Source: a bacterium
GTDB lineage: Bacteria > SZUA-79 > Acidulodesulfobacterales > Acidulodesulfobacteraceae
Direction of reading: 5' to 3'
Assembly: GCA_021845685.1 (NCBI GenBank)
Contig: JAJZVN010000015.1
Span: 1-48,744, forward strand
DNA length: 48,744 bases
Of the stretch, positions 604 through 45,641 are shown piece by piece; within the stretch, counting starts at the first letter, position 1, and the number at the start of each line of letters is the position of its first letter. A program made the position numbers and the translations under genes. The notes below the pieces were generated by a model, which worked only from the letters and a program-made list of their open reading frames with translations, made no database searches and had not been told where the DNA came from.

Positions 604-686
604 TTATAATAGCTATATAATATAATATTATGAACGATCATGATTTTAATAAACATATTCTGTATTAAAAAATAGTAAACTGTCAT

Positions 687-809: not shown

Positions 810-968
810 ATGGATAAATATCAGTGCGAAGTTTGCGGATATATTTATGACCCTGAAAATGGAGACAGCATAGGCGGAATTCCTCCGGAAACTCCTTTTG
901 AAGAAATTCCCGATGATTGGGTTTGCCCCATATGCGGTGCCGACAAAACACATTTTGTCAAATTATAA
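810..968 (+). CDS. Rubredoxin
   Basis: Canonical 52-aa rubredoxin, cytoplasmic one-iron electron carrier. Translation begins [18 protein letters not shown] and contains the two ligand pairs C6-x2-C9-G and C39-P-x-C42-G, with the usual aromatic positions Y11, Y13 and W37. Its length matches the family (about 52-54 aa). The ATG at 810 follows a GGAGA at 795-799. The stop at 966-968 is only 2 nt before the ATG of the deoxyhypusine-synthase-like gene, so the two are probably translationally coupled. The core [20 protein letters not shown] is shared with the upstream divergent rubredoxin, which supports a local duplication. Confidence 0.95.
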
Positions 969-27280: not shown

Positions 27281-27685
27281 CTAATGTTCATTGTTACTGG
27301 ATTTATGTATAAATTTTTGTTTAAATGAATCTATGCCTTCAACCGCCACCGTAGCAATTAAAAGATAAAAAACAATAATTGCAAAACCGTTAGCAAGTCT
27401 TTCGTTTCCCGCCAGATCAATAATCATGGCTATAAACAGCATTAAAACCGCTCCTAAAGAATACGGAGCCGACAGCCTTGTTTTAAAAAATTCTATCTTG
27501 TTAAAATATTTTTCTCTTAAAATATAGCGCACCCATAATTCGTATAAAATAACAACAATTAATCCAAGCCATTGAAAACCGAAACCTATTTGACCGTGAA
27601 CAATTCTGAATATTAAATCCACTGCGAATATAAAACCTATTATATGCAGTATAATAAAAACAATATTGTTTAATATATTTTTCAT
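27281..27685 (-). CDS. Small four-helix membrane protein, unknown
   Basis: 134-aa integral membrane protein with four hydrophobic segments (about 5-30, 36-53, 72-92, 97-115) and short charged tails. No family recognised. It is the last gene of the leftward polysaccharide locus, 16 nt downstream of the basic 855-aa protein, so co-transcription is likely. Its codon use resembles the locus, not the accessory island to its left. Confidence 0.7.
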   Translation of the reverse strand: MKNILNNIVFIILHIIGFIFAVDLIFRIVHGQIGFGFQWLGLIVVILYELWVRYILREKYFNKIEFFKTRLSAPYSLGAVLMLFIAMIIDLAGNERLANGFAIIVFYLLIATVAVEGIDSFKQKFIHKSSNNEH

Positions 27686-27701
27686 TTTATTTTTATGTAA
27701 T

Positions 27702-30269
27702 TCATTTTTGCTTAATTTTCTTTCCTGGTTTAATCTTATTTGTTTTATTTAAATTTGATTTTTTTGCATAGTTAATTTTATTGTGTTTAATTTTTTCTAA
27801 AGATGCTATTTTAATTTTAAAAATTTCGTTTGGTACTTTAGCTATATTATAGTTGCCTTGCTTAAGATAAATTTTGTGCGAAATAAAACTGCCGCCGTTT
27901 TTAAAAATTTCATCAATTGTTTTTAAGGACAACGCATAATTTTTTAAATATATTTTTTTATTATTCAATTTGAATAAGGGGTCATTTTTTATAATATTGT
28001 CAAGCGAAGGTGTTTGCGTTATTGTATAATGTATTAAATAAATGTTTTTGTTTATTTGAAAATTATAGCTATAAGGTATTGTTATTTGCTTTTGTTTAAA
28101 ACTGATAATAATTTTATTGACATTTTTCAAGTTAATGTTTTTTAAATTAAGTACAAAAAAAAGATTATTGTTCAGTAAATAATATTCAACGGGAACTTTA
28201 ATTTTTTGGGTTTTATTAAAATTAACAAACAGGCATTGTAATTTTTTAAAGTTTTTCGCCAATTTTTCATTATATCCGCCGTTAATATAAAATCTGATTA
28301 AACCGTAACGCACTTTGCTTATATTAATATTTATAAAATTCAAAATAAATCTTCTTGTGTTATATGTTGTAATATTAGTGATGGGATAAAAAGAATCGTC
28401 TACAAGCCCTGAACTTATTTGCTTAATTTTTTTATTTTTCTTTACGATATTAATTATTTCTTGGTTTTTTAAAGTTATTGAAGTAAACAATGGTTTTTTT
28501 AAAAAACCTGAGGGGTTTAAATTAAAAGAGTTTATAAGTTTTAACTGATTTTTATAATTAAATTTGTTTTCAATTAAATTAAAAAAATTTATTTTATTTT
28601 CTTTGTTTAAATGCGGGCTTTTCGAAAAACTTAAAAATTTAGGATATTTCATAGGAAGGCTTTCGTAGTAAAAATATCCGCTAATTTTATTTATTTTTTT
28701 GTCAAAGACAAAAATCCTTAAACCTTTTAATATGGGATAACGTTTATAATAATGTCTGCCGTGCCAGTAATCGCCGTTATTTCCTCTAATTATAAAAGAC
28801 TTATGCGGATTGTTTGTGCCAATATTATATTTTTTTAATATTTTCTTTAAAATACGTTTATTTGTAGTCCAGTATCTATAAAGCTTTAATTTATTAAAAT
28901 GAACGGATATATAAGTTGTTTTATTGTAATAAGACGTATTTCCATTGAATTCTTTTCTTGTTTTTATTCTAACGCCTTTTGAAGGAACAGGGATTAATAT
29001 ATTTTTATAAAAATGCCTCGGTTTGTTAAAATACGACAGTAAAGGACTGAAAAAGTTTTGTTCTGTTAAATATTTTTTATAAATAAATCTGTAAAAATGC
29101 CTCACTATTTTATTTTTAATACTGCCTATATGTTTTATTTTAGTATTATAATCAGCGAAAAATATTTCATTTAATATATTATGAATTAACGCTTGTTTTA
29201 TTTTTTTTTCGGAAACAAACATTCCGCTTTTTTTAGACCGCTTTATTTCTTTTTTAAGTATTTTGTTAAACAACCTGCTTTTTTTGGTAAAGCGGATGAA
29301 ATATCTTTTATACACAAATCTTTCAAATACCTTTTTTAAAGGCAGGTAGTTTGGATATATCAAATCTAATTTGGTAAATTTAACGGAACCTTTTATTTTT
29401 TTATATTTTTTTACGATAAAATAAATTTTAATAATATTAGCATCTCTCCAGTGCTTAATTTTTTTGTTTTTAAGTATGCCGTAAAGATTTATTAAACCCT
29501 TGCTTGACAAATTAAACCGTCTGGAAAAATAAACTTTGTGTTTAATCTTATATTTAATATACGCTTTTACGTATTTTACTTTGCCTTTTATAGTAAATTG
29601 CGGATAAAGATATAAAAATTTAGTCAGGCTAACTTCGGGCTTTTTCTTATTCGGGTTCTTAGTTAGTTCAATGTATCCGTTATTCCTAAATTCTCCAAAT
29701 ACGGTATAATTTCTAAGCACGTTTTTTACGGGAATGTTAACCGGAGTGTAAATAATTCTATCAGGCAAATCAGGATTGGAAAAAGAAACATAAAACAGGA
29801 TAAAGGGAGAGCTTCCTTTTCCGGTAATCTTAGCTCTGAAGATTAAATGACGGTATCTGTCTTTTTTAAATTTGGCTATATTTTTTTTATTTAGTAAAAT
29901 TTTAGACTTATAGGCGTATAAATAATGATGTACGGTTAAATCTTGGAGCGCCCGCAGGTTTTTAGTTTTTTTAGTTTCGGCAAGTATTCGTCTTTTATGA
30001 AAGTAAACAGTTTTTGGCTTAATGTAAACCGCAAGCCTGTAATAACCCGTTTTTTTTATATGAATTATTTTAGATACAACATGATTTTGAATTACGACAT
30101 GGTGAATCGTTAAAATTTTATAAACCCTGTAAAGAAGAAACAGGACAATAATAATAGCAAGCCATTTAGCGATTTTAAGTTTATGCCGCCATAAGTTTAA
30201 GCCCGCTTTAAACAGCGCTGAGAATATCGCCTTTATATCCGAAATTATTTTTTTGTCTATATTATTCAT
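27702..30269 (-). CDS. Large, very basic single-pass membrane protein, unknown
   Basis: 855-aa protein I do not recognise. One N-terminal transmembrane helix (about 33-50, IAKWLAIIIVLFLLYRVYKI) follows a Lys-rich cytoplasmic start, so the bulk is probably extracytoplasmic. It is dominated by Lys, Ile, Tyr, Phe and Asn with few Asp/Glu, implying a strongly alkaline pI. No Cys-rich, catalytic or repeat motif is obvious. The pattern of alternating hydrophobic residues suggests beta-rich domains. It lies between a YfhO-like membrane protein and a small membrane protein, so a role in glycan assembly or binding of acidic polysaccharide is inference only. Confidence 0.75.
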   Translation of the reverse strand: MNNIDKKIISDIKAIFSALFKAGLNLWRHKLKIAKWLAIIIVLFLLYRVYKILTIHHVVIQNHVVSKIIHIKKTGYYRLAVYIKPKTVYFHKRRILAETKKTKNLRALQDLTVHHYLYAYKSKILLNKKNIAKFKKDRYRHLIFRAKITGKGSSPFILFYVSFSNPDLPDRIIYTPVNIPVKNVLRNYTVFGEFRNNGYIELTKNPNKKKPEVSLTKFLYLYPQFTIKGKVKYVKAYIKYKIKHKVYFSRRFNLSSKGLINLYGILKNKKIKHWRDANIIKIYFIVKKYKKIKGSVKFTKLDLIYPNYLPLKKVFERFVYKRYFIRFTKKSRLFNKILKKEIKRSKKSGMFVSEKKIKQALIHNILNEIFFADYNTKIKHIGSIKNKIVRHFYRFIYKKYLTEQNFFSPLLSYFNKPRHFYKNILIPVPSKGVRIKTRKEFNGNTSYYNKTTYISVHFNKLKLYRYWTTNKRILKKILKKYNIGTNNPHKSFIIRGNNGDYWHGRHYYKRYPILKGLRIFVFDKKINKISGYFYYESLPMKYPKFLSFSKSPHLNKENKINFFNLIENKFNYKNQLKLINSFNLNPSGFLKKPLFTSITLKNQEIINIVKKNKKIKQISSGLVDDSFYPITNITTYNTRRFILNFININISKVRYGLIRFYINGGYNEKLAKNFKKLQCLFVNFNKTQKIKVPVEYYLLNNNLFFVLNLKNINLKNVNKIIISFKQKQITIPYSYNFQINKNIYLIHYTITQTPSLDNIIKNDPLFKLNNKKIYLKNYALSLKTIDEIFKNGGSFISHKIYLKQGNYNIAKVPNEIFKIKIASLEKIKHNKINYAKKSNLNKTNKIKPGKKIKQK

Positions 30270-30370
30270 AATTGATTTTATAAACCGTATATCGTATTTG
30301 TGTATTGTATATGTATTTGTATCTGTATATCTTATACTTTAACAAGTAGTATTTAAAGACTAAAATAAAT

Positions 30371-33151
30371 TTAAATGTCATTATTATTTTTTATATCGTT
30401 TATATTGTTTGTATCAGCTACATCGTTATTATTTGTATCTTTTTTATTTTTTCTTTTTTTAATGGCGTCGTAAATTAAATAGGCTACGATAATAAACAGC
30501 GACGAACCTGAAATAATCAAACCGATATATAACAATCTCTGAGGCCAATAATCAATTATCAGTTCAAAATCGACCGTGCCGTTTTTGTTAACTTTGTAAT
30601 ACCGCGGACCCAGCTTTTTAATATAATCAAGATTAATCCACCATGAATTTGCATAACCGTTAGCAACAAAGTGATATTTTGCGGGCAGTGGTTTTTCAAA
30701 TAAAGTCTGAAGAATGTGCCCATCGGAAATATTATTGTTTTGTATGGTTCCGTTTATGTCTTTGGAAATAAATTTATTGCCTAAAAATGCAATGTTTTTA
30801 TCAGCATTGGTCTGTTTTACTATATTATTATTTGTTCTATTGAAATTATCTCTTGAATAATCAACGCCTACCCCTTTCGGATAAACCTGCGGGTAAACAT
30901 CCCAGCCTTTCAAATACATTAAATTAAAAATAAGAGGAAAGCTTGTCTTTGCATTATGAATTATAACCGCGTATTTTGATGGATTAATTTCTTTAAATTC
31001 AATAGTCGGAGCGGTAATTTTTTTTACGGTCTCCGATATTTTCAGCGTTTTATCAGAAGCTGGAATATTCAATATTTTATTGGTTATTGAATATTGTTTT
31101 GAATATTTATCGGCAATATTGTTTAATTCATTGTTTTTTATTCTTTCGGAATGCCTGTTTTGAGAAAATAACTTCGCAAATACGGCGGTTCTAACTTTAA
31201 AACTATTTTGCATCGTAATCGGCACCATATAATTGTCTAAATCATGCAATTTTAGCTCATGATTTACAAACATTACCCTCTTAGGCGTCCATACTTTAAA
31301 TATGAAATATTTATCGGATAGCTTATATATATCAAGTTTGCCGAATTTTCTTGCTAATATTAAACCTTTTGAGGAGTTTAGTAGGGAGCGCAATTTCGGT
31401 TTTGAGATATATTTTAAATAAGAACCATAGTTAGCATAAGCACTTGCACCAATGATATTTGTTTTTGATAGTATTATATCGTTTTGCAATATAACATACC
31501 TTGCTGAAAACATGCCCAAAAAGTTTTTTAAATCAGGATATTCGTAATTTTGCAATAAAATTAGCAAGGCGTCTTGTGGATAACTACTATCAACAACTCT
31601 TACAATGCTATGGCCATATAACAAATAAAATGGCATTCCCCCAAGATAACCAAAATGCCAATTAAAATTTATATTAGGATAAAAAAGCGGCAAAGATAAT
31701 ATGTTATAATTAATTTTAGTTTTACCAAAGAAGTTTTTTGTCTTGTTGTAATAATTTGGAACTTTTACCATGTAAGAAAGTTTTTTATCTTTATAATTTG
31801 TATATCCTTTCAACATATTGTTAGACCACATAGGAAAAACATATATTAAGCAAGAAATAAGCATTATAAAAGATAAACCAATCATACTGGTTTTATTCCC
31901 TATTTTATGTTCAATATATTTATAGATTATACCTGCGCCGCTACCAAATAAGATTGCGGAAGATACAACTACTATAATAAGAAAAGAAATATTTTGGTAA
32001 AACAAAAAATGTAACGGCAAATGTTCTAATAACCAAATTTTAATATTCCTAAAAGGATGTTCATAACCTACACTAAGATAAATACCCATTAAATATAATA
32101 ATATAAACATAAAATATTTCTTAGGATTTTTTATCATAGGTATTAATAAAATAAAGGTAATAAAAAACCCTATTATAATAAAAAATGGATCAAAATAAAC
32201 TTTCTCCCATATTAAATGAGAAAACTTGTAAATCCAATTACCCTCAAGAAATGATACATTCCTAAAATAAGATAAAAGATTTTGTGCATTAGAAAATGGA
32301 TTTATCTGGGCATATACATGAAAAAAACTAATAAAAATCTTTTTGGCATTTGAATATGCGTTATTACCGAATGCAAATGTAAGAAATGGGACAATCCACC
32401 AAATATTTATAAATAAAATTATAAAAAACATCCTTGATAAATAATTTAAATCTTCTTTTAAGTGGGAAATATTATCAACTTTTAAAATCTTATAAAAAAG
32501 AAAAAATAAAACAAGCCAAATTATTTGAAAAAAAACTTGAAAAATAGCTAAAAACATTACACATAAAGAAATGAACAAAGCAATAATTAAAAGATAAATT
32601 AATTTCTTAGTTTTTAATCCTTTTATAAAATAAAAAAGGATTAAACTGGTAAATAACAACAAAAAAAGAGTGCCGCTGCCCGTATAAAGAAATAATAAAT
32701 TAAATATTATAATAAAATTGAAAACATAAAAAATAGCTGAAATACAAGCAATAACTTTTTTATTTTCATCATCTTCAAATAATTCTAAAATAAATAAATA
32801 GAAATAAAGCATTGCAAAAAATACAATTAAACCATAAAAAACTATTTGTGAATATTGATAATTCTGGCCAACAATATAAAAAATAAAAGAAAAAATTAAA
32901 GCAAATGGGTAAAACATGAAATGTATAAATTGTAAGCCTAAATTATTTGAGGATATTAAATATGGGGTGTTCTTTAATATATAAATAGGATTATAAAATA
33001 TCCACCATAATCCTGAATGACCTTTAGCATAAAATGTTCCATTTTTATTATAAAGCCATAAGAAGGGAACAAAAGATAAAATGATAAAAACAAGTAGCGG
33101 AAATTTATGGTAGTTTAATCTATTTGCAATTTTGTGTATAAACTTAAACAT
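30371..33151 (-). CDS. YfhO-like polytopic membrane protein (putative glycosyltransferase)
   Basis: 926-aa protein. Residues 1 to about 440 hold roughly a dozen transmembrane helices with an early loop NGTFYAKGHSGLWWIFYNPIY. A long extracytoplasmic domain (about 460-870) carries low-complexity Asn-rich stretches. One C-terminal helix (about 872-895) and a Lys/Asn/Asp-rich tail follow. The topology resembles YfhO/GT-C-type membrane glycosyltransferases, which use polyprenyl-phosphate sugars outside the membrane; no unambiguous catalytic motif was identified. Context in a polysaccharide locus supports a glycan function. Confidence 0.6.
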   Translation of the reverse strand: MFKFIHKIANRLNYHKFPLLVFIILSFVPFLWLYNKNGTFYAKGHSGLWWIFYNPIYILKNTPYLISSNNLGLQFIHFMFYPFALIFSFIFYIVGQNYQYSQIVFYGLIVFFAMLYFYLFILELFEDDENKKVIACISAIFYVFNFIIIFNLLFLYTGSGTLFLLLFTSLILFYFIKGLKTKKLIYLLIIALFISLCVMFLAIFQVFFQIIWLVLFFLFYKILKVDNISHLKEDLNYLSRMFFIILFINIWWIVPFLTFAFGNNAYSNAKKIFISFFHVYAQINPFSNAQNLLSYFRNVSFLEGNWIYKFSHLIWEKVYFDPFFIIIGFFITFILLIPMIKNPKKYFMFILLYLMGIYLSVGYEHPFRNIKIWLLEHLPLHFLFYQNISFLIIVVVSSAILFGSGAGIIYKYIEHKIGNKTSMIGLSFIMLISCLIYVFPMWSNNMLKGYTNYKDKKLSYMVKVPNYYNKTKNFFGKTKINYNILSLPLFYPNINFNWHFGYLGGMPFYLLYGHSIVRVVDSSYPQDALLILLQNYEYPDLKNFLGMFSARYVILQNDIILSKTNIIGASAYANYGSYLKYISKPKLRSLLNSSKGLILARKFGKLDIYKLSDKYFIFKVWTPKRVMFVNHELKLHDLDNYMVPITMQNSFKVRTAVFAKLFSQNRHSERIKNNELNNIADKYSKQYSITNKILNIPASDKTLKISETVKKITAPTIEFKEINPSKYAVIIHNAKTSFPLIFNLMYLKGWDVYPQVYPKGVGVDYSRDNFNRTNNNIVKQTNADKNIAFLGNKFISKDINGTIQNNNISDGHILQTLFEKPLPAKYHFVANGYANSWWINLDYIKKLGPRYYKVNKNGTVDFELIIDYWPQRLLYIGLIISGSSLFIIVAYLIYDAIKKRKNKKDTNNNDVADTNNINDIKNNNDI

Positions 33152-33193: not shown

Positions 33194-34333
33194 TTATATA
33201 AGCCCCATTATTGATAATTCTTCCTTGGCGCTATTAGATATATCATACCTTCTTACCATCTCTAACCCTAATTTTGAATAATGGGCTAATAATTTTTCGT
33301 CATTTAATAATTTAACAATTTTATCTGCAAATTGGGCAATATTTAGAAGTTCAATGTAAGTAATTGAATTTCCGTATATTTCTTTATAAACATCTAAATT
33401 ATAGGCTACAACATGTGTGCCAAGAGCCATTGCTTCAGCAATAGATAAGCCAAACCCTTCTTCATGACTAGGAAACACAAATAATTTGCTTGATTGGATA
33501 ATAGAGTATACCTCGTCATTATTTTTTGCATAACCAAGCATGTCAATATTATTTTCAAGATTTTTAGCTTTTATTAGTTTAATCAGTTTGTTTATAATTT
33601 CCGTATCTCCCGAACCCATAATTGCAAGCTTGGCATTATTTATTTCCTTGTAAACCAAACTCCAAATTTCTATAAGATCGTATATTCCTTTAGATTCTAC
33701 CAATCTGCCAACAAATACCGCATCATAATTAGTGCAACCTTTATATTTTTTATTTTGAATATTATTTAGATTAATACCTGGATAGATTATTTCAATTTTC
33801 TTCCCATCGAATCCTTTTTTAATTAAATATTCTTTGACATCTTTATTTATCACTATGATTTTATCCGTTAATAATTTAATTAAAAAAAAACTTAAATTTT
33901 GTGCGAGGAATGAGATTTTTCTATTGGTTGGTATTATGTGATATATTTTTTGTATCCATATAACCTTTTTATTACATAATTTATAAAAGAATGCAGGTAA
34001 TACATCAGGTAAAAAATCTGATGTACCGTATAAAAAATCGCCTGATCTTAATTTAATTTTAAGGAATAACGCCTTTATACCTCTAAAAAGATAAGTAGAA
34101 ATTATATTTTTAAAATATTTTCTTTTGTCTATAATAATGAAATTTAAACTATCGCAATATTCTAAGGCAAGCTTCTTACCTAACCATGAAGTGATGACGG
34201 TTATTTCAGCATATTGATCAAGATATTTACAAAGTTCTAAAAAAATAACATCACCGCCGCCCTTCCCAGAAGTATAGGCATTCATAAAAGCGAGTATTTT
34301 TTTATTTGATTGTTTATTTTTATTATTTAACAT
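33194..34333 (-). CDS. Glycosyltransferase family 4
   Basis: 379-aa GT-B fold glycosyltransferase. The N-terminal lobe begins FMNAYTSGKGGGDVIFLEL. The nucleotide-sugar lobe has AVFVGRLVESKGIYDLIEIW, LAIMGSGD and the signature FPSHEEGFGLSIAEAMALGTHVVAYN with the paired glutamates of GT4. It would transfer a sugar from a nucleotide donor to a lipid-linked glycan in the cytoplasm. It overlaps the downstream end of the methyltransferase gene by 7 nt. Confidence 0.9.
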   Translation of the reverse strand: MLNNKNKQSNKKILAFMNAYTSGKGGGDVIFLELCKYLDQYAEITVITSWLGKKLALEYCDSLNFIIIDKRKYFKNIISTYLFRGIKALFLKIKLRSGDFLYGTSDFLPDVLPAFFYKLCNKKVIWIQKIYHIIPTNRKISFLAQNLSFFLIKLLTDKIIVINKDVKEYLIKKGFDGKKIEIIYPGINLNNIQNKKYKGCTNYDAVFVGRLVESKGIYDLIEIWSLVYKEINNAKLAIMGSGDTEIINKLIKLIKAKNLENNIDMLGYAKNNDEVYSIIQSSKLFVFPSHEEGFGLSIAEAMALGTHVVAYNLDVYKEIYGNSITYIELLNIAQFADKIVKLLNDEKLLAHYSKLGLEMVRRYDISNSAKEELSIMGLI

Positions 34334-35031
34334 AAATATTTTTTATTTCTCACCGCATATAATTCAAAAGCATAAAAAGGTAGATAATAAGTAAATAATC
34401 TACTAACACCCGCTATAATTGTCCAAAAAACTACCGGTTTTCTAATCCAAATTATTTCATTATTATTTTTGTTTTTCTGTTCACTATATAAAATTTTTAG
34501 ACCGGCTGATCCGTATACTTTAAATCCTAAACTTTTTAATTCTTTTACATCAAAACCGCATAAATGGTTTTGTAAAATATTGGAATCATATTCATTTTGG
34601 GGTAAATATCCATTAGGAGTTGTAAGTATAACCTTATTTTTTGCCCATCTATTTGCTCTATCTATTAAATTTAATGCATCATTTTTATCAAGATGTTCAA
34701 TAATTTCTATCATAATAACAGCATCAAAAGAATCTTCTGCAAAATTAACATCTATCAGATTTTCATTGATATACTTTGAATGTATTTTTTTTGACTTTGA
34801 TGCCTCCAAAGAAGGTTTAAATGCTTCAACTCCCACGCTATATTCAATAGATTTACAGTATTGTATCGGCGAGTCTTTACCGCATCCTAAGTCCAAAGCA
34901 GATTTGCAATCTTTCAAATCTCTTTTTAAATTATATACCGTGGTATGAAATATTTTCTCCAAAAATTTATTATGATATAAAAAAGAATACAATTTATTCC
35001 GTAATTTGCCATTAGCATTCAATTTTGACAT
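34327..35031 (-). CDS. Class I SAM-dependent methyltransferase
   Basis: 234-aa methyltransferase (Methyltransf_11-like). SAM motif I is ALDLGCGKDSP (41-51), followed by VGVEAFKPSLEAS, DAVIMIEIIEHLDKNDAL and ILTTPNGYL. It is likely to methylate a sugar or glycan intermediate of the locus. Residues near the C-terminus are hydrophobic (FWTIIAGVSRLFTYYLPFYAF), suggesting membrane association. It overlaps both neighbours (20 nt with the GT2 upstream, 7 nt with the GT4 downstream). Confidence 0.85.
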   Translation of the reverse strand: MSKLNANGKLRNKLYSFLYHNKFLEKIFHTTVYNLKRDLKDCKSALDLGCGKDSPIQYCKSIEYSVGVEAFKPSLEASKSKKIHSKYINENLIDVNFAEDSFDAVIMIEIIEHLDKNDALNLIDRANRWAKNKVILTTPNGYLPQNEYDSNILQNHLCGFDVKELKSLGFKVYGSAGLKILYSEQKNKNNNEIIWIRKPVVFWTIIAGVSRLFTYYLPFYAFELYAVRNKKYLC

Positions 35032-36055
35032 TTTTCATACCTTTTGCAAGAATGTTATTTTTATAATAGCTTATTATTTTAATTAATAATCGTTTGGGCA
35101 TAAATAAAGAACCTAAGGTGTATACCCAAAATCTTATAGAAATTAAATTTTTAGGTCTATATCTTATATAAAGTAATATTTCTCTATAATAATATTTTGC
35201 TTGCCCAAAATTCTTAATCTGCAAAATACCTTCAATTTTTTTAGATGAATAATCGATTAATAGTTTTCTTAAGTTATCATATTTTTTATTATTTAAAATA
35301 TGATTAAACATATCAACCCAAGATTTCAAAGGAGAAACTTTATAAATTGAGGAGACATGGATGCATTGAGAACCTTCAGTTCTGACGGCAATAATGTAAT
35401 CGTTTAAATATACTGCTTTATATTTTGTTAATATACTTAAAAAGGGATAAATATGGGATACAAAAACATCTTTATGGAATGGCATATCGATATAATTTTT
35501 GCGGTATGCAAGTCCTGAAAGCTGGCCCAGGGAATCGAGCAAATGACAAACATCATTTTCATCGGCTATATTTATTATATCAAATGGCTTGTTGCTCAAA
35601 GGTCTAGCGCTATGTCTAATTCCATGATTGAAATCATTTCCGTCAAACTGGTAATATGCCCTGCTCAAAACTCCGATTTCTTCGCCAATTTTAAAAGCGT
35701 TATAGGTTTTTAACAAAGCATCTTTTGCAAGTATGTCATCCTGAGCCATTAGATATACAATATCGCTGTCCTTTGAAGATAATAAACGGAGCTTTTCTAA
35801 ATTAGAAGGATAACCCAAGTTGGCTTCATTTTTAAATAGTTTTATCCTGTTATCTTTAATATCTTTTATTTTATCAATTGTATTATCTGTTGAGTTATCA
35901 TCTGAAACAATTAATTCAAAATTAGAATAAGATTGTTTTAAAATGCTTTCTATCGCCTGTTTTACCCATTTTGAACCATTATAAGTGGGCATTAAAATAC
36001 TAAATTTTAGATCCTCCTTTGAAATTACAATTTCAGAGTCAATTAAATTAGACAT
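35012..36055 (-). CDS. Glycosyltransferase family 2
   Basis: 347-aa GT-A fold transferase. Canonical start FSILMPTYNGSKWVKQAIESILKQSYSNFELIVSDDNSTDNT with the nucleotide-binding Asp pair, then YLMAQDDIL as the DxD-type metal site. A strong ribosome-binding site (AGGAGGAAGGGAG) precedes the ATG at 36055. Donor and acceptor are unknown. Confidence 0.9.
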   Translation of the reverse strand: MSNLIDSEIVISKEDLKFSILMPTYNGSKWVKQAIESILKQSYSNFELIVSDDNSTDNTIDKIKDIKDNRIKLFKNEANLGYPSNLEKLRLLSSKDSDIVYLMAQDDILAKDALLKTYNAFKIGEEIGVLSRAYYQFDGNDFNHGIRHSARPLSNKPFDIINIADENDVCHLLDSLGQLSGLAYRKNYIDMPFHKDVFVSHIYPFLSILTKYKAVYLNDYIIAVRTEGSQCIHVSSIYKVSPLKSWVDMFNHILNNKKYDNLRKLLIDYSSKKIEGILQIKNFGQAKYYYREILLYIRYRPKNLISIRFWVYTLGSLFMPKRLLIKIISYYKNNILAKGMKNVKIEC

Positions 36056-36111
36056 ATGGCTCCCTTCCTCCTATTTTTATCGCAAATAAATAATATATTA
36101 AAACACCTTTT

Positions 36112-37365
36112 TTACTCAAGAAAATATCTTAAATCATACAGGGGTTTATTTTTTATTAATATTTCATTTTCTTTAAATTCCGCCCAATTAGTGATAAGTA
36201 TGCTAACATCAACTATTTTTATTAATTCTTTTAAGCTTTCCGCATATCTTATAGGAATACCATAACTAATTTCAAAATTCTTATTTGCAAGCGGGTCATA
36301 AGCTATTATATTTTTATAGCCATTGTTTAACAGTATGTTTATAATATCAGAAGCCGGGGATTGTCTAACATCATCGGAATCTGGCTTAAAAGAAAGTCCT
36401 AAAATTCCAATATTTTGCTCCTTTGAAATTTTATTTATCAACTCATTTATCAAATAGGCTTTTATACTTTCATTTATTTCTATATTTTGTTTTAAAATTT
36501 TAGGGATAAAACCTTTCTTTTTAGAAATTTGATATATAGCTTTTGTGTCTTTTGGTAAACAATACCCTCCATAACCACAACCCGGATAAACGTATGATGC
36601 CATTTTAGCCGGATTCCCCGACCACCTTGCGTCTTTATGCAGAATCTTAAAAGCCGATGGAATATCGATATCGCCAATTGTTTTGGCAATAACCGACATT
36701 TCGTTTGAAAAACTAATCAGGGTTGAAAGTAAAGTATTAGAAAGATATTTTATAAATTCTGCAGTATTATAATTAACAAAATATATTTCTGAACCAAAAA
36801 CATTATAAATATTTTTTAATGCTTCGGCGCTTAAATCATCTTCAACTCCAACCACAATTCTGTCCGGATTTATAAAATCACTCCAGGCATAGCTTTCCCT
36901 CAGAAATTCAGGGTTATTAGCTAAGCCTATAGCTTCCCCTACTATAAGCCCCCTACACCGTAATAAAGGCTTTATGATTTCAGAAGTTGTAGAAGGAGGA
37001 ACAGTTGATTTTATGACTAAAGTTTTAAATCCATCTTTTTTAATATTATTCAAAGTATCTTCAATTGCCCGCAATAAATAAGTAAGGTCTGAACTTCCAT
37101 TATTGTTTTCAGGCGTTCCGACACAATAAAATATAATGTCTGCCTCATTAACTGCTTCATCTATGGATTCAGAAATAAAAAACTTTTTATTTAAATGTCT
37201 ATTTAAAACTTCTTCAAGACCGGGCTCGTGAAAGGGAATTTTATAATTACTAATCCCATTGCGTTTATTTTTATCAATGTCAAATCCTTTTACTATAAAT
37301 CCTTTTTCACTAAAACCCAAAGCAGTAGTTAATCCGACAAATCCCAATCCAATAACCGCAATCAT
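36112..37365 (-). CDS. UDP-glucose/nucleotide-sugar 6-dehydrogenase
   Basis: 417-aa NAD-dependent enzyme that oxidises the C6 hydroxyl of a nucleotide sugar, most likely UDP-glucose to UDP-glucuronate. N-terminal GLGFVGLTTALGF (6-18), central STVPPSTT and EFLRE, and the catalytic cysteine C269 in PGCGYGGYCLPKD. The C-terminal UDP-binding domain contains GLSFKPDSDDVRQSP. Its ATG overlaps the stop of the UDP-glucuronate-decarboxylase-like gene by 4 nt, so the pair probably forms a UDP-glucose to UDP-glucuronate to UDP-xylose route. Confidence 0.9.
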   Translation of the reverse strand: MIAVIGLGFVGLTTALGFSEKGFIVKGFDIDKNKRNGISNYKIPFHEPGLEEVLNRHLNKKFFISESIDEAVNEADIIFYCVGTPENNNGSSDLTYLLRAIEDTLNNIKKDGFKTLVIKSTVPPSTTSEIIKPLLRCRGLIVGEAIGLANNPEFLRESYAWSDFINPDRIVVGVEDDLSAEALKNIYNVFGSEIYFVNYNTAEFIKYLSNTLLSTLISFSNEMSVIAKTIGDIDIPSAFKILHKDARWSGNPAKMASYVYPGCGYGGYCLPKDTKAIYQISKKKGFIPKILKQNIEINESIKAYLINELINKISKEQNIGILGLSFKPDSDDVRQSPASDIINILLNNGYKNIIAYDPLANKNFEISYGIPIRYAESLKELIKIVDVSILITNWAEFKENEILIKNKPLYDLRYFLE

Positions 37366-38447
37366 ATTATATTAGAACCTCCTTCCTTCAAAAAAATCAT
37401 AAATCTTTCAACGCCTTCTTCTATTAATATGTCAGGATTGTAATTTAGAATTTTTTTAGCTTTATCAATTTTAGGACATCTCCTATTCGGGTTATCCGTT
37501 AAATAATCTTTATCAGCATGTTTTTTATAAATTATTTCAATATCGTTGTTAAAAATTTCCTTAGCTTTTTTTTTATATATAACTGCCAATTCATTTATTG
37601 AAATTTCCGGGTTATCAATGCCTATATTAAAATAATCGTATTGACCATATAAAAGTATTTTTAAATAACCCGTAATTGCATCGGCAACATATGAAAAAGT
37701 TCTGGTTGGAGTTCCATCGGAAAAAACTTCAATATTTCTGCCTTGATAGGCAGATTTTGCAAAATCTGCCACAACTCTTTTATCATCTATACTCATTCCA
37801 GGTCCATAATTATTAAATGGTCTTGCAACACCCACAGGTAAGTTGTATTGTTTTGAATAAAGCGTACACATGGTTTCGCCAAATCTTTTTGCTTCGTCAT
37901 AACAAGCTCTCGGGCCTGTGCAGGATGTAAAACCCCTATATTCTTCGTCGGTGGGAATATTATTAATATCGGGATCGCCATAAATTTCACTACTTGAAAA
38001 AAACAAAAGCCCTTTCAACTTTTTATCTTTATAAAACTCTAATAAATTTCTAAGTCCCCAGGCATTTGCCTCCAAAGTTTGTACCGGATATTTTCTGTAA
38101 AAAACAGGGGAAGCTATCGACGCCATATGGATAGCCATGCTTACTTTTCCTGTATTCTCAATATTCTCAATTTTATCGTTAATGATATCAAATTTATATA
38201 AATTGACTTTATTGCTGTTTGATAACTCGTCAATCCATCTCGGTTTTCCAAAAATAAAATTATCAAGACCGATAATTTGTTTTATACCAAATTCCTGTTT
38301 ATAACGGGTTAAAAATTGCATAAAATAATATCCTAAAAAACCGGCACATCCGGTTATTAAAATAGTTGAGTTTTGTAATTTTTCTTTTTCTTGATCGCTT
38401 AATTTATTATAAATATGGACTAAATCTTTTGCTAGAATTTGATTCAT
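37362..38447 (-). CDS. NAD-dependent epimerase/dehydratase (UDP-glucuronate decarboxylase-like)
   Basis: 361-aa extended short-chain dehydrogenase. Cofactor loop TGCAGFLG (32-39), SSSEIYG (151-157) and the catalytic Y183-DEA-K187 within GPRACYDEAKRFGE, a context like UDP-xylose synthase. RPFNNYGPGM and SDGTPTRTFSYVADA are also family-typical. Following the overlapping UDP-glucose dehydrogenase it would make UDP-xylose. A dehydratase of another nucleotide sugar (for instance the CDP-glucose arising from RfbF) is the alternative. Confidence 0.8.
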   Translation of the reverse strand: MNQILAKDLVHIYNKLSDQEKEKLQNSTILITGCAGFLGYYFMQFLTRYKQEFGIKQIIGLDNFIFGKPRWIDELSNSNKVNLYKFDIINDKIENIENTGKVSMAIHMASIASPVFYRKYPVQTLEANAWGLRNLLEFYKDKKLKGLLFFSSSEIYGDPDINNIPTDEEYRGFTSCTGPRACYDEAKRFGETMCTLYSKQYNLPVGVARPFNNYGPGMSIDDKRVVADFAKSAYQGRNIEVFSDGTPTRTFSYVADAITGYLKILLYGQYDYFNIGIDNPEISINELAVIYKKKAKEIFNNDIEIIYKKHADKDYLTDNPNRRCPKIDKAKKILNYNPDILIEEGVERFMIFLKEGGSNII

Positions 38448-38505
38448 GATTATTTTCTATATGGTTAATTTTAAAATATTTATGATTATCCTTTTAGTTA
38501 TTATT

Positions 38506-39453
38506 TCAGTTATCATTTAAAAACTTATATTTAAAATATACAAGTCCAACGATAACTTTTAAAAAATACATATACAATGTTAAAATAGGATGTCTCACTA
38601 ATCCTTTCCATTTGCCATTCTCTGTGAAAACTCCTAAATATCTATAAAAAACTCCCAATTGCTTTTTAACAATATAATCGTTTTTGCCCCATTTATTAAT
38701 ATATTTATCAAAATCTTTGATATAATATGACTTTTTATTTATGTAATTTGATAATTTAAAGTTGCTCTCATTATGGAATATTACATTATTATATCTGCCA
38801 TATAAATCTTTATAAGCAATGCCATTTGAAATTAAAAATTTTTCAATTTCTTTTGGTAGTATATTTTTTATATTGGCAGAAGCCGGATTTTTAAAACTGT
38901 CGACAAGTTTAAGTTTCCCCAAATTTGAAATTTTTCTATCAAAATCCCAATCATCTGGCCCTGTCATATTTTCATCAAAACCGTTTACCTTTAAGCAAGT
39001 TTCTTTTTTAAAAAACCTTATAGCGTCTATCGGAGTCGCATTGTAAAAAGACCTTTCAAATCTTCTAACCCTTGACCATAATCTTTTGCCTAAAATTATT
39101 TCTTCTATATACAATCCAAGAACCGAAGAATCAATTTTCACTTCATTAACACAAGATTCCACAACAAATGGAGCTAAAATCATATCGGCATCAATATATA
39201 AAATGAATTCCCCGTTACTGACGCTTACGCCATAATTTCTTTTAACTGATCTTTCAGGCCCTTTATCATAAATCAAATCAGTATATTTTTTTGCAATTTC
39301 TTTTGTTCTATCACTAGAATCATCAACCAAGATAATTTCGATATTTTTATAAGATTGATTTTTTATGCTTTTTAAACAGCGCTCAATATTTTTTTCTTCG
39401 TTTCTTGTATTAACCATGACTGAAACTAAAGGCAGTGACATTTTTGTATCCAT
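38506..39453 (-). CDS. Glycosyltransferase family 2
   Basis: 315-aa GT-A fold transferase: LVSVMVNTRNEEKNIERCLKSIKNQSYKNIEIILVDDSSDRT at the start, FILYIDADMI as the DxD site, and DDWDF further on. The C-terminal part has a hydrophobic segment (PILTLYMYFLKVIVGLVYFKY), suggesting membrane attachment. A locus-internal enzyme with unknown donor. Confidence 0.9.
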   Translation of the reverse strand: MDTKMSLPLVSVMVNTRNEEKNIERCLKSIKNQSYKNIEIILVDDSSDRTKEIAKKYTDLIYDKGPERSVKRNYGVSVSNGEFILYIDADMILAPFVVESCVNEVKIDSSVLGLYIEEIILGKRLWSRVRRFERSFYNATPIDAIRFFKKETCLKVNGFDENMTGPDDWDFDRKISNLGKLKLVDSFKNPASANIKNILPKEIEKFLISNGIAYKDLYGRYNNVIFHNESNFKLSNYINKKSYYIKDFDKYINKWGKNDYIVKKQLGVFYRYLGVFTENGKWKGLVRHPILTLYMYFLKVIVGLVYFKYKFLNDN

Positions 39454-39501
39454 TATTTATTAAATTAATTTAAGTCTTTTAATATTAGCTTTTATATTAA
39501 T

Positions 39502-40716
39502 TTAATTATTTATTGTTACCTGTGGTATAGCCGTAACAAACTTTGCATTCCACTTTTTAATATATAACAATTGACTGATAATTTCACTCTTTATATTCCA
39601 TGGAATAATGATTACAAAATCTGGTTTTTCTTTTAAAAGCGCATCTTCGGAGACTATTGGAATATGGCTGCCAGGCAAAAATTTATTCTGTTTATGCGGA
39701 TTTCTATCTACAATAAACGAGATTAAATCTTTTTTGATTCCGCAGTAGTTTAATAAGGTAGTTCCCTTTGCCGCAGCTCCATAAGCTGCTACTTTCATCC
39801 CATCTTTTTTGGCTTCCAATAAAAATATTAATAATTCATATTTAATTTTATCAACTTTAACTTGAAAATTTTTATATCCGTCAAGTTTGTCTAAATTAAT
39901 AGCTATTTCTTTTTCTAATATTTTTTTTACATGTTCGGAATGTTTTTTATTCATTTCTGAATGGGCTGCGTAAATTCTCAGACTACCGCCATGCGTAGGC
40001 AATTCATCTACGTCAAAAATATTTAGTCCGTGCGCTTTAAATATTTGCATTGTCGTAAAAAGCGATAGATATGAAAAATGTTCATGGTATATGGTATCGA
40101 ACTGACTTTGTTCTATTAGATTTAATAGGTGCTGAAATTCCATAGTTATGGTACCTGTTGGCTTAAGCGCTTTTTTTAGACCTTTAACAAAATCATTAAT
40201 ATTTGGTACGTGGGCCAATACATTATTGCCAAGAATTAAATCTGCTTTAGGCAAATTATTTGCCAACTTTTCTGTAAAAAAATCTTCAATGACATCAATA
40301 CCTTTACTTTTAGCCACAGCCGCTGTGTTTTTTGTCGGCTCCACTCCAAAACACGGAATACCTTGAAGTTTAAAATATTGAAGCAAATAACCATCATTGC
40401 TTGCAATCTCTATTACCTGTGATTTATTATTTAATCCAAGTTTTTCAATCATCATCTCTGTATAGTTTTTTGCATGCTCCAGCCAGCTATTAGAATATGA
40501 ACTAAAATAAGCATAGTTTTCATTAAAAATTTCATTATTTTTTTTATATTCGTCAATTTGTACTAAAAAACATTTATCACACACAAAAAGTTTAAGCGGA
40601 TAGAAGATCTCAGGTTCATTTAATTGTTCCGCTGATAAATAAGAGTTTGACGGCGGTGAACTAACAAGATCAATAAATTCATGGTTTAATTTGTTTCCGC
40701 AAAATCTGCAATTCAT
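39502..40716 (-). CDS. Nucleotide-sugar C-methyltransferase-like protein
   Basis: 404-aa SAM methyltransferase with the three-part architecture of sugar C-methyltransferases. A zinc-binding N-terminus (C3-x2-C6 and C49-x2-C52), a central Rossmann domain with IEIASNDGYLLQYF and a HGGSLRIYAAH motif, and the C-terminal domain AAYGAAAKGTTLLNYCG. These enzymes add methyl branches to 4-keto sugars. The adjacent rfbF suggests a CDP-activated deoxysugar as substrate. Confidence 0.85.
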   Translation of the reverse strand: MNCRFCGNKLNHEFIDLVSSPPSNSYLSAEQLNEPEIFYPLKLFVCDKCFLVQIDEYKKNNEIFNENYAYFSSYSNSWLEHAKNYTEMMIEKLGLNNKSQVIEIASNDGYLLQYFKLQGIPCFGVEPTKNTAAVAKSKGIDVIEDFFTEKLANNLPKADLILGNNVLAHVPNINDFVKGLKKALKPTGTITMEFQHLLNLIEQSQFDTIYHEHFSYLSLFTTMQIFKAHGLNIFDVDELPTHGGSLRIYAAHSEMNKKHSEHVKKILEKEIAINLDKLDGYKNFQVKVDKIKYELLIFLLEAKKDGMKVAAYGAAAKGTTLLNYCGIKKDLISFIVDRNPHKQNKFLPGSHIPIVSEDALLKEKPDFVIIIPWNIKSEIISQLLYIKKWNAKFVTAIPQVTINN

Positions 40717-40737
40717 ATATTAACTCCTCTAAAAATA

Positions 40738-41517
40738 TTAATCATTCCAAACTTTCCACGGAGCTTCGCCGCTTTCCCATAATTGATTTAGTTGCACTTT
40801 ATCTCGCAAAGTATCCATGGGTTTCCAAAATCCCGTATGTTTATAAGCATAAAGTTCTCCATCTTTTGATAAATTTATCAATGATGATCTTTCAAATATA
40901 ATGCCATCGTCTTTTGGAATATAATCAAATACTTTTGACTCGCATACAAAAAATCCACCATTGATCCAGTTATTATCACCTTTTGGTTTTTCTAAAAAAT
41001 AACTCACTTTATTATTGTTTTCCACGTTTAACATACCAAATCTTCCTTCAGGCTGAACAGATGTTACGGTTATTGCTCTTCCATGCAACTTATGAAACTT
41101 AACTAATTTATTAATATTTATATCTGAAACTCCATCACCATATGTAAGCATAAAAGATTCATTTCCTATAAAATTCTGTGCTCTTTTAATTCTTCCTCCT
41201 GTCATAGTATTAATGCCTGTATCAATAAGTGTTATCTTCCATGGTTCGCTTGAATTATTATGCACTTCCATTTCATTATGTTTAATATCTATTGTTATAT
41301 CGCTTTGGTGTAAAAAATAATTTGCAAAATATTCTTTTATATAATAACCTTTGTATCCAAGTAAAATAACAAAATCGTTAAAACCATAAAAAGAGTATAT
41401 TTTCATAATATGCCATAAAATTGGTTTGCCGCCAATTTCGAGCATAGGCTTAGGTCTTATATCTGTCTCTTCACTTAACCTTGTTCCATATCCGCCGGCA
41501 AGTATAACTACCTTCAA
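40738..41517 (-). CDS. rfbF: Glucose-1-phosphate cytidylyltransferase
   Basis: 259-aa nucleotidyltransferase that makes CDP-glucose, the first step of CDP-dideoxyhexose synthesis. Pyrophosphorylase signature VVILAGGYGTRLSEETDIRPKPMLEIGGKPILWHIM (3-38), FMLTYGDGVSDIN, INGGFFVCESKVFDY and the C-terminal GFWKPMDTLRDK. It lies 21 nt upstream of the C-methyltransferase gene. The usual partner, CDP-glucose 4,6-dehydratase (RfbG), is not adjacent. Confidence 0.95.
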   Translation of the reverse strand: MKVVILAGGYGTRLSEETDIRPKPMLEIGGKPILWHIMKIYSFYGFNDFVILLGYKGYYIKEYFANYFLHQSDITIDIKHNEMEVHNNSSEPWKITLIDTGINTMTGGRIKRAQNFIGNESFMLTYGDGVSDININKLVKFHKLHGRAITVTSVQPEGRFGMLNVENNNKVSYFLEKPKGDNNWINGGFFVCESKVFDYIPKDDGIIFERSSLINLSKDGELYAYKHTGFWKPMDTLRDKVQLNQLWESGEAPWKVWND

Positions 41518-41649: not shown

Positions 41650-43155
41650 TTATCCCTTGAAATCCATAAAATGAGCCATAACTTTCTTTCCTGCCCTGAA
41701 CATAAACTTTAAATCGTCCATGTTTCTAACCGAAATTATTTTTCTTGCTATAAATGCGGGATTCAATGCCGAGGTATACAATTCCTGCGTAAACTTCAGC
41801 ACTTCGCCGCTGCCCACAGGGCTTTTCCAGACAGATTCCTTCATATCGTATCTGTCCCAGTCCTCGGTTAAAAGCCAGCCGTTTTTTTTGGCCTCTTCAA
41901 ACATCGGAGTCCCAGGATACGGAACAACAATTGTTGCCTGAAGTGTGTCAATGTAGCCTTTTTTAAACAAATATTTTGCAAATTCAATAGTTTTAACCGC
42001 ATCATCTTTAGTTTCCCAGGGATAACCCACCATAGTCGTAATATGAGGCTCAAGCCCTGCTTTCTTTGCGGATTTCACAGTTTCTTCAATCTGTTCAATT
42101 TTTATCCCTTTATCTAACCTGTCCAAAGTTGATTGAGTCATAGATTCAAGACCTATTAAAACAAATCTGAAATTTGCTTTTTTTAAAAGCTGCCACTCTG
42201 CATCGTTTAAAGCTCCAACTCTCATATTGCAGCCCATTACGACTTTTTTATTATAACCTCTTTCAATATGGCTTAAAGCAAAATCTTTTAACCATTTTCC
42301 GCGAGGAAAACATCCGCTGTCGTCAAATATTTCTTTAACCTTTAAATCATTTATAAGATAGCTTATTTCGTCTAAATATCTTTTTACGGATAGCGTTCTG
42401 AATGTTTTTGCAGGATAAAGCGTAGTCCATGAACAAAATTTACATTTTCCCCACCAGCAATCCCGTCCCGTCATCATATAGGTGCCCGGGGTAAATTTAA
42501 AATTGCCGTTTTTATATGCGTAAAGTTTCCAGTTAGTTAGATTTCTATCTATAAACGGCAGTAAGTTTAAATCGTTTTCTTCTATGTTTGCTTTGCCTGT
42601 ATTTTTAATTTCATTATTTAAGCGGTAATAAACGCCTTTCGGCAAATTAACTTTTTGATTTGAAGACAACTCCGGTTTGTTAGCATTGTCAAGGCTTTTA
42701 CATAAACCGAGTAAAGAAAAATCATAATCTCCGCCAGTTATAATAAAATCGGCATCTGAATTTAGCAAAGATTCTTCTGGAAGCGCAGTAACATGGTCAC
42801 CCATTAAAACAACGGCTGGCTCAAATTTACCATCGTAAGTTTTTTTAAAGTTTTCTTTTATATCATTAATTATTTTCCAATGTCTTTTTACGACCGGCGT
42901 TTTTGTTTCTATCGCTATAACGTTCGGTTTTTCTTTTATAATCCTATCAAGCCAGTCATTATATAAAAGTCCTTCGGCTATACCGTCGTCCCAGAACACG
43001 TCAAATCCGCTTTTGTTTAAAATGGTTGCCGCATATGCCGGAACTACCGGGTAAATATAAGTCGGATCCTTAAACCACTGAAACTGCCGGTTCTGAGAAA
43101 GCAGCGCAATGCCTTTTTCCGATTCCAAAGGTGGATACGATATCGATATTTTCAT
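41650..43155 (-). CDS. B12-binding radical SAM protein in the polysaccharide locus
   Basis: 501-aa protein with an N-terminal cobalamin-binding-like domain (about 1-150; VVLMGDHVTALPEESL, FIITGGDYDFSL) and a radical SAM domain. The iron-sulfur cysteines are C233, C238 and C241 in RDCWWGKCKFCSW, a CX4CX2C spacing in place of the common CX3CX2C. Later landmarks are FVLIGLESMTQSTLDRLDKG and ATIVVPYPGTPMFEEAKKNGW. A substrate within the locus, such as a sugar or lipid carrier methylated at an unactivated carbon, is inferred from context only. Confidence 0.8.
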   Translation of the reverse strand: MKISISYPPLESEKGIALLSQNRQFQWFKDPTYIYPVVPAYAATILNKSGFDVFWDDGIAEGLLYNDWLDRIIKEKPNVIAIETKTPVVKRHWKIINDIKENFKKTYDGKFEPAVVLMGDHVTALPEESLLNSDADFIITGGDYDFSLLGLCKSLDNANKPELSSNQKVNLPKGVYYRLNNEIKNTGKANIEENDLNLLPFIDRNLTNWKLYAYKNGNFKFTPGTYMMTGRDCWWGKCKFCSWTTLYPAKTFRTLSVKRYLDEISYLINDLKVKEIFDDSGCFPRGKWLKDFALSHIERGYNKKVVMGCNMRVGALNDAEWQLLKKANFRFVLIGLESMTQSTLDRLDKGIKIEQIEETVKSAKKAGLEPHITTMVGYPWETKDDAVKTIEFAKYLFKKGYIDTLQATIVVPYPGTPMFEEAKKNGWLLTEDWDRYDMKESVWKSPVGSGEVLKFTQELYTSALNPAFIARKIISVRNMDDLKFMFRAGKKVMAHFMDFKG

Positions 43156-43234: not shown

Positions 43235-44312
43235 TTATTTTCTTAATTTACTCTTTAAATCCTTCAAAATGAAAAAACCGTAAAAAAATCTTATGCCATA
43301 CCATATATGCGTTAAAAAAATGTAATAAACGGAAAAAAGCGAGACTTTAAAATTTTTAACTTTTTTATTAATATCAAAAAATGCGTAGCATAAAGCTAAA
43401 ATATATATTAACAAGCCGACGGAAAAAGGCAATAATGAATTTTTGTCGGTAATTGCAAACATTAAAAATAAAATAAAATAAAAAACTAAAAATGTGGGGA
43501 AAAAATAATAAAGTTTAAAAGAATTTTTAGGATATTTTTTTGCGAAATATCCCCTGTGAAGACCGTAATTTCCTATCTGTCTTAAGTGTTTTAAAAGACC
43601 AGACCTTCTATGATGATAAACTACAACATTTGGAGCGTAAAAAATTTTTTCTCCTTCATTAATGACATCTAAACACAACTTGGTGTCTTCACCTGGCCAA
43701 TATTCGGAATTAAAACCTTTAACTTTGTTAAACACATTCTTTTTAATCAGTAAATTAACGCTCGGCCAATCGTCAACCTCTTTAATTGAGCCCATCGGAC
43801 AATATCTTTCAGGATTTCCTCCGCCTAATTTGCTAAGAAATACTCCCCCCCGAGACTTTTTGCCAGAATCCGTCATTTTTCGGAGTTATAGCTGGACCGC
43901 CTATAGCTCCGACATTTTCATCGTTAAAATACGGCAGAGCATTTGTCAGCCACATTTTATCGGGATATGCGTCATCGTCAATAAAAGCTAAAATATTGCC
44001 TTTAGAATATTTAGCGCCTATATCTCTTTTTTTTGCAGGGCTAATCTTCCCCGTTGGTATTATAGTTGTGTTCGGATAATTAAGTTCAAGTTTGCTGTCA
44101 GGCAAAATAATAACCTCAAAATTCTTAAAATCCATTTTAAATGTATAGTCTAAAGTTTCCAAAAGATAATCGTTCATATCCTGCAGCGGTATTATTATTG
44201 AAACAAAATAATAGCAGGCGGACAATATTTTAGATTCAGAAATATTGCCGTTATTATTAATGATATGGTCTCTAATATTATTATCGTTATTGTTGTATTT
44301 GACGGTGTTCAT
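43235..44312 (-). pseudogene. Glycosyltransferase family 2 split by a frameshift in a G7 tract
   Basis: Two overlapping frames make one GT2. The N-terminal half (44312 to 43833) has VSIIIPLQDMNDYLLETL, AFIDDDAYPDKMW and ends ...FWQKVSGG then SIS-stop. The C-terminal half (in the other frame, to 43235) resumes GGVFLSKLGGGNPERYCPMG, with the acceptor motif YWPGEDTKLCLDV and three hydrophobic segments. The break is exactly at seven Cs (seven Gs on the coding strand), 43845-43851; six Gs would restore a continuous frame of about 358 aa. It could be a phase-variable gene, a recent mutation, programmed slippage or a sequencing error. Confidence 0.85.
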
Positions 44313-44324: not shown

Positions 44325-45641
44325 TTATATTTCGCGTTTTTTAAAAATAGGCATTATATGTATCTTTTTTAAAAAAATAAGTATATCATCATAAAAAATA
44401 TTTATCAATGATATAAACGCAAGTAAATATCCCGTGGCCATTACACAAAATATAACCGATACCATTGTTTGATGGAACAAGCTTATTAAAACAACCTCAA
44501 ATATCGCGAATAAAAACATTAAAAATACAAGTAAATATTTCTGCACGGCCATATAATAATTAACCATTATGCTTAAAATAGCGAAAGAAAACATGCTTAG
44601 ACCATAGAGACTTAATAAAGGAGATGCCTTTAAATATTTACTTCCCATAAGAGTGGATATTATAAAATTGGGAAAAAGGATATAAAAAATTTCACCGAAA
44701 AAACATAATAAAGTAGTGATGATAATAGTTTTAAATAAAATCCTTTTCGTTTTATCATTTAAAGCATGCGCATGCGATACTTCGGGAAACATTACGACCG
44801 CAAAACTGGCGGGCAGATATAATATAATTTTTCCGAGTAAAGCACTTACCGCGTATATACCTGCTTCTTTTGATGAAAAAAAATGCTTTACCATAATTAA
44901 ATCTATATTTGTAAAAAAAGTGTAAAAAAACAAGGAAAAAAGCACAAGCAAGAAATATTTAATCGTTAAAACATTTTCCGAAACCTCGCCGTTATTTTTA
45001 TTAATGGTCTGTTTTGAGGTAATTTTTTTAAAATAATTATAAATAAAGATAACAGCTATTAATGATATGGCAATCTGGGCAATAAAAGTTGAAAGAAGAG
45101 CGCCCGCTATATTCAAACCCAGCAATACCAGAACAACGGCGATAACAAACTTGCACGCGGACGACAGACTTCCTGTAAGTCCGTAGATGCCGTACATTTT
45201 TGTTCCCTGAAGTATGCCCATTAATAATGAGAAAAAAAAACTTATCAATAATATAACGCCCAATATAGCATAATATAAAAAAACATTTATCTTCATGAAA
45301 TCCATTAAATACGGGATAAAAATAAAATAAACGGTAAGAACGGTTAGTCCAAAAAAAAGAACCTTTAAGGATATGTTTTTAATAAATTTTTTAACTTCGT
45401 TAAATTTAGATATTGCCAGATTATGAGATATATTTTTTGCGGCTATTATAGTTATAGTGCCGGCGGGAACCGAGATTATCAAAAGGATTGAAAATAATGA
45501 ATTTAATATGCCGTATTCGGATACCGTTAATAAACGGCCCATTGCGATTTGAAATAGATAATTGAAAAAATTAGCCGACATGGAAAAGATGAAGATATAA
45601 ATTCCATTTTTGAACAAACTGTCGTTTAATATATTTTTCAT
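44325..45641 (-). CDS. Oligosaccharide flippase (Wzx/MATE-like)
   Basis: 438-aa integral membrane protein with about twelve hydrophobic helices, typical of MOP-superfamily flippases that move lipid-linked oligosaccharides across the inner membrane. Recognisable features are LLTVSEYGILNSLFSILLIISVPAGTI near the start and DLIMVKHFFSSKEAGIYAVSALLGKIILYLPASFAVVMFPEVSHAHA in the centre. Codon and residue bias fit the locus. Its position among glycosyltransferases supports a repeat-unit flippase. Confidence 0.85.
   Translation of the reverse strand: MKNILNDSLFKNGIYIFIFSMSANFFNYLFQIAMGRLLTVSEYGILNSLFSILLIISVPAGTITIIAAKNISHNLAISKFNEVKKFIKNISLKVLFFGLTVLTVYFIFIPYLMDFMKINVFLYYAILGVILLISFFFSLLMGILQGTKMYGIYGLTGSLSSACKFVIAVVLVLLGLNIAGALLSTFIAQIAISLIAVIFIYNYFKKITSKQTINKNNGEVSENVLTIKYFLLVLFSLFFYTFFTNIDLIMVKHFFSSKEAGIYAVSALLGKIILYLPASFAVVMFPEVSHAHALNDKTKRILFKTIIITTLLCFFGEIFYILFPNFIISTLMGSKYLKASPLLSLYGLSMFSFAILSIMVNYYMAVQKYLLVFLMFLFAIFEVVLISLFHQTMVSVIFCVMATGYLLAFISLINIFYDDILIFLKKIHIMPIFKKREI

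Follow-up and report, generated by a model that had tools for sequence, protein, structure and literature searches.

A conserved gene trio with an AftD-type GT-C candidate at the constant 3′ end of exchangeable surface-polysaccharide loci in the Acidulodesulfobacterales

The window analyzed here (48,744 nucleotides; positions 1 to 48,744 of contig JAJZVN010000015.1, assembly GCA_021845685.1) derives from an uncultured member of the Acidulodesulfobacteraceae. Acid mine drainage is the setting from which Candidatus Acidulodesulfobacterales was described (PMC6776010), and the MAG Candidatus Acididesulfobacter diazotrophicus AP1 was returned by the genome scan as a close relative. As an earlier, sequence-only reading of this DNA had noted, three contiguous and codirectional open reading frames, encoding proteins of 926, 855 and 134 amino acids, end a polysaccharide locus (Table 1). 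The intergenic gaps within this trio are 101 and 16 bases, and the number of hydrophobic stretches is about 12 in the 926-aa protein, one in the 855-aa protein and four in the 134-aa protein. No meaningful match to any of the three was found among Pfam and NCBIfam models, and searches of the PDB with family profiles built from them (A1, A2 and A3) returned nothing significant. Elsewhere in the window, two small adjoining genes on the forward strand (25987-26863) resemble a nucleotidyltransferase and a HEPN-type partner and, judged by eye, are possibly a toxin-antitoxin pair.

Table 1. Coordinates of the module and of the polysaccharide locus in the window
Feature	Position	Strand	Basis or remark
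134-aa protein, four transmembrane segments	27281..27685	-	ORF
855-aa lysine-rich protein, single N-terminal transmembrane segment	27702..30269	-	ORF; proposed polysaccharide-binding subunit
926-aa membrane protein, putative AftD-type GT-C	30371..33151	-	ORF and profile homologues
Parts of the 926-aa protein	residues 1-590; about 600-905		variable GT-C half; conserved C-terminal domain and last transmembrane segment
Variable middle of the locus	33194..41517	-	glycosyltransferases, methyltransferases, glucose-1-phosphate cytidylyltransferase, SDR, nucleotide-sugar dehydrogenase
Radical SAM protein	41650..43155	-	constant 5′ block
GT2 with C-terminal transmembrane segments	43235..44312	-	constant 5′ block; two frames in the window
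Wzx-type flippase	44325..45641	-	PF01943; constant 5′ block
GT2, polyprenyl-phosphate sugar synthase-like (DPMS, ArnC, GtrB-like)	45820..46560	-	constant 5′ block
DUF2079 membrane protein, GT-C candidate	46702..48261	-	Pfam match (PF09852); obligate co-occurring fourth member

A surface-polysaccharide locus with a swappable middle has the trio as its constant 3′ end. Within the constant 5′ block, the synthase-like GT2 matches proteins of known structure by sequence only (DPMS 5mlz, 2.7e-15; ArnC, 4.1e-15; sll0501, 9.7e-14), so that the components of multi-component transmembrane glycosylation encoded here include this GT2, assigned by sequence, and the PF01943 flippase. The second GT2 of this block occupies two overlapping frames in the window (43833-44312 and 43235-43876), and relatives have one intact ORF of 327-357 aa in its place; the break is a mutation or an assembly error. 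Between the window and two loci, L069 and L029 (G012), the polysaccharide proteins encoded at 35012-41517 are about 95-100% identical across two genera, whereas the constant genes that flank this segment are much less alike, which points to a recent cassette exchange. Across the nine loci described below, the proteins with at least four transmembrane segments encoded between the constant ends are limited to the flippase, the AftD-like protein, the 134-aa protein and the DUF2079 protein, so that no Wzy or ABC exporter was seen there, and these multi-spanning proteins likewise include no Wza/ABC-type exporter.

The gene order 926-aa, basic and 134-aa protein was found at nine loci, spread over 8 of the 30 Acidulodesulfobacterales-group genomes examined for the phylum (the window, L008 in the same genome, and one locus each in G001, G002, G003, G004, G009, G012 and G022). 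This recurrence shows that the arrangement is not a chance observation, and it strongly bears out the earlier expectation that the trio is kept as a unit. At the G022 locus an epimerase gene lies between the 926-aa and basic genes. The basic and 134-aa genes share 4-11 bases in six loci and are separated by 3-16 bases in the other three. In the window's genome, a further polysaccharide locus is built on the same design (L008 and L009, G000:C101), and its basic protein has diverged to about 37% identity with the window copy. Among 386 sampled genomes, the 134-aa family was detected in 8, all of this phylum, with no full-length member outside it in that sample, and no basic protein was found on plasmids.

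The sequence-only reading described a unit of three proteins; their linkage stands, but a fourth member had been left unconnected. The protein encoded at 46702-48261 scores 120.7 bits against the DUF2079 model (cut-off 28.2), and the nine DUF2079 copies fall in precisely those 8 of 30 genomes that encode the basic protein, an overlap with a chance of 1 in 5.85 million by naive counting that leaves shared ancestry uncorrected. In five loci the DUF2079 gene begins 3 bases past the 134-aa gene, and its position in the window and G002 is at the end of the locus opposite the trio. The DUF2079 protein has an invariant Asp and an invariant Glu (D41 and E45) in the early loop that corresponds to the first extracytoplasmic loop of the AftD-like protein, and comparison with the AftD-like profile gave no convincing link between the two families. 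DUF2079 is named in no paper of the literature searched.

The 926-aa protein had been called YfhO-like, a label that does not survive comparison with family models, as neither the window protein nor its remote homologues match YfhO (PF09586). Profile A1 of this family finds homologues in other phyla, among them proteins at L094 and L093 (E = 1.7e-50 and 1.6e-47), and these score 46.1 and 31.6 bits, respectively, against the GT-C_AftD model PF11847 (cut-off 26). Because these homologues from another phylum match PF11847 above its cut-off, the window protein is better called a putative AftD-type GT-C, although it matches no Pfam family itself, PF11847 included, at E 0.1 or better. AftD sequences were also the sole PDB matches of a wider profile (A6), at a weak E of 0.06. 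Homologues across phyla have in common a C-terminal domain with the motifs NPTKY, GWKAY and NGYANGWW, and this domain is also found in single-transmembrane proteins in which a GT-C half was not detected (L096:9176-10534, L094:96-887 and L107:1477-2955). In the first extracytoplasmic loop, after the first transmembrane segment, an acidic residue is expected; this position is Asp in six of the nine loci and His in the window, L008 and L029. Since His replaces this residue, the window copy might be inactive. An AlphaFold2 model built from a two-sequence alignment had a mean pLDDT of 31 and is no evidence of fold.

The 926-aa gene is a mosaic of two parts with different histories that meet near residue 590. 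In comparison with L023, the transmembrane half has a dS of 0.89 and a dN of 0.31, whereas the C-terminal third has a dS of 0.24-0.54 and a dN of 0.02-0.04, close to the dS of its neighbors (0.23 for the basic gene, 0.36 for the 134-aa gene). The order is reversed in comparison with the paralogue L008, with a dS of 0.52 for the transmembrane half, 1.07-1.57 for the C-terminal third and 1.95 for the basic gene. The C-terminal third therefore evolves as one block with the basic and 134-aa genes. The transmembrane half does not always track the genes upstream of it, as in L024 and L029 the upstream genes are close to those of the window, yet this half is 50% identical.

The 855-aa protein was described in the earlier reading as strongly basic, single-pass and of no recognisable family, and each of these properties is confirmed: its pI is 10.33, its net charge at pH 7 is about +147, its sole hydrophobic stretch lies near residues 29-55, and it has no Pfam, NCBIfam or significant PDB profile match. 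As judged from these searches, it represents an extremely lysine-rich family that is genuinely new to Pfam and NCBIfam. Among 148 ORFs of at least 300 aa, the copies of this protein take the top nine places in basicity, with 12.9-17.3 net charges per 100 aa compared with 7.1 for the next ORF and a median of 2.9. Because the positive charge is kept between clades in which these proteins are 36-40% identical, and because acidic residues are scarce in all nine, their composition argues for an electrostatic role. No homology to the AftD-like family and no internal repeats were detected in the basic protein, and an AlphaFold2 model from a two-sequence alignment (mean pLDDT 32) gives no evidence of fold.

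Remote AftD-like loci offer a possible explanation for the pairing of the basic and 134-aa proteins. In L092, L094 and L095, which belong to three other phyla as judged from genome lists, the AftD-like gene is followed directly by a gene for one membrane protein (263-487 aa), the C-terminus of which is homologous to the 134-aa protein (to its C-terminal half). When the ORFs of five loci were searched with the 134-aa profile, these three neighbors were the top matches, and a profile-profile comparison of the 134-aa family with the remote partners gave a probability of 89.5% (E = 2e-6), compared with 0.5% or less for unrelated membrane families and a reversed profile used as negative controls. 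A related partner also adjoins a gene for the AftD-type C-terminal domain in G398 (L107), and AftD-like loci that have no such partner are L093 and L096. The partner in L092 and L095 comprises an N-terminal transmembrane segment, a soluble part and C-terminal transmembrane segments, a layout equal to the basic and 134-aa proteins joined. Given the homology at the C-terminus of the single remote partner, an accessory subunit that is one protein elsewhere may here be divided between the 855-aa and 134-aa proteins. No similarity was detected between the basic protein and the soluble parts of the remote partners, so the grounds for this proposal are gene position, topology and the match of the 134-aa protein. 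In one remote phylum the accessory membrane protein is tandemly duplicated (L098 and L099, G386:C42:70141-72248). A GtrA-type flippase label was considered for the 134-aa protein and rejected, as no such Pfam or NCBIfam model matches it.

In this setting, the most probable role of the module is to add or join sugars outside the cytoplasm. At about even confidence, we propose that the trio and DUF2079 constitute a glycosyl-transfer machine on the outer face of the cytoplasmic membrane, in which the basic protein holds the acceptor. In such a machine, the DPM1/GtrB-like GT2 (45820-46560) would charge polyprenyl phosphate, and the Wzx-type flippase (44325-45641) would carry the resulting lipid-linked sugar or oligosaccharide across the membrane as the presumptive donor. 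The AftD-type GT-C, DUF2079 or both would then transfer sugar onto a growing or finished polysaccharide, with the division of labour between them, the donor and the product being inferred. The 855-aa protein would use its N-terminal helix as an anchor, with its bulk in the periplasm, and would keep the acceptor chain near the GT-C, while the 134-aa protein, as the membrane part of the accessory subunit, may dock to the C-terminal domain and last helix of the GT-C. According to a proposal in a review, certain GT-Cs depend on a separate partner for acceptor binding (PMC8035078), and the carbohydrate-binding modules of EmbC, AftD and GT136 bind acceptor (PMC11127046).

A different role for the trio was suggested in the sequence-only reading, namely a novel export or anchoring unit for an acidic polysaccharide. 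Its premise of a conserved unit stands, and the extreme conserved positive charge of the basic protein, the position of the trio at the end of polysaccharide loci and the lack of a Wza/ABC-type exporter among the multi-spanning proteins of the nine loci would all suit a basic protein that binds the finished polymer by charge, with the membrane proteins as its platform, and that either leads the polymer through the periplasm or retains it at the cell surface. We nevertheless consider either version unlikely, since the large partner is a homologue of GT-Cs and no transporter, and each locus already has its own Wzx-type flippase, a combination that fits sugar transfer outside the cytoplasm better. 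The link to UDP-glucuronate is also weak, as the nucleotide-sugar dehydrogenase of the window is not conserved with the trio: a close homologue lies inside three of the nine loci and a distant one (about 33% identity) beside two more, which does not support a specific tie to glucuronate. In addition, glucuronate would be partly protonated at the pH of acid mines.

Two further possibilities keep glycosyl transfer in the locus and differ in which component acts, or on what. The presence of Wzx, the lack of a Wzy candidate in any of the nine loci and the existence of two GT-C-type candidates per locus are also what would be seen if the AftD-like GT-C or DUF2079 moved a lipid-linked oligosaccharide en bloc to a protein or lipid, possibly to the lysine-rich protein itself; with no match to an oligosaccharyltransferase family, and with the prospect that Wzy is encoded outside the nine loci, we regard such protein glycosylation or ligation as improbable. 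It is similarly very doubtful that the AftD-like protein is a catalytically dead scaffold in a structural complex that leaves DUF2079 as the only working enzyme. The His found for the first-loop Asp in three of nine loci, the window included, and the retention of D41 and E45 by DUF2079 are consistent with this, but the Asp is kept in 6 of 9 loci with an otherwise identical module, and the transmembrane half is mosaic and diverging, as expected of an enzyme that determines specificity.

The proposed glycosyl-transfer machine has partial precedents in other bacteria. The GT-C membrane half of mycobacterial AftD (PF11847; PDB 6w98, 6wbx) is homologous to the 926-aa protein via intermediates, and AftD is one polypeptide that contains 11 N-terminal transmembrane segments, carbohydrate-binding modules and five more C-terminal transmembrane segments (PMC8698533). 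In this different bacterial group, by contrast, the GT-C, a soluble protein with one transmembrane segment and a four-spanning protein are encoded by separate genes, and the soluble subunit belongs to a new lysine-rich family in which no carbohydrate-binding module was detected; the likeness of the C-terminal segments of AftD to the 134-aa protein is one of layout and not demonstrated homology. The CsbB/GtcA/YfhO and GtrA/GtrB/Gtr systems likewise encode a synthase-like GT2, a flippase and a GT-C together (PMC8035078), but here the flippase is of the Wzx type, no GtrA model matches the 134-aa protein, and the constant components extend to a basic subunit and to DUF2079 as a second GT-C candidate. 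The three-component GT136 pentofuranose system of Citrobacter youngae, which has a MATE-family flippase and a GT-C with a C-terminal polysaccharide-binding domain (PMC11127046), resembles the present locus in placing a flippase and a GT-C within a polysaccharide locus. It differs in that the window locus, where the donor maker is DPMS/GtrB-like, yielded no PRPP-dependent synthase, and in that the accessory subunit here is a separate protein.

A fuller version of the proposal, which we put forward only tentatively and think unlikely, is a Wzy-independent machine for polysaccharide assembly. In it, a split AftD-type GT-C with a lysine-rich clamp of more than 100 net positive charges would cooperate with DUF2079 to polymerise or decorate the surface glycan, and recombination within the gene for the GT-C would swap specificity and leave the accessory subunits constant.

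In this module, a GT-C would be served by dedicated accessory subunits with genes of their own, a concrete example of an arrangement that has been proposed in a review (PMC8035078) and seldom tied to genes. DUF2079 gains a consistent genetic partner. In addition, these loci reveal serotype-like cassette exchange, with a boundary between histories inside a putative glycosyltransferase gene, in uncultured bacteria of acid mines.
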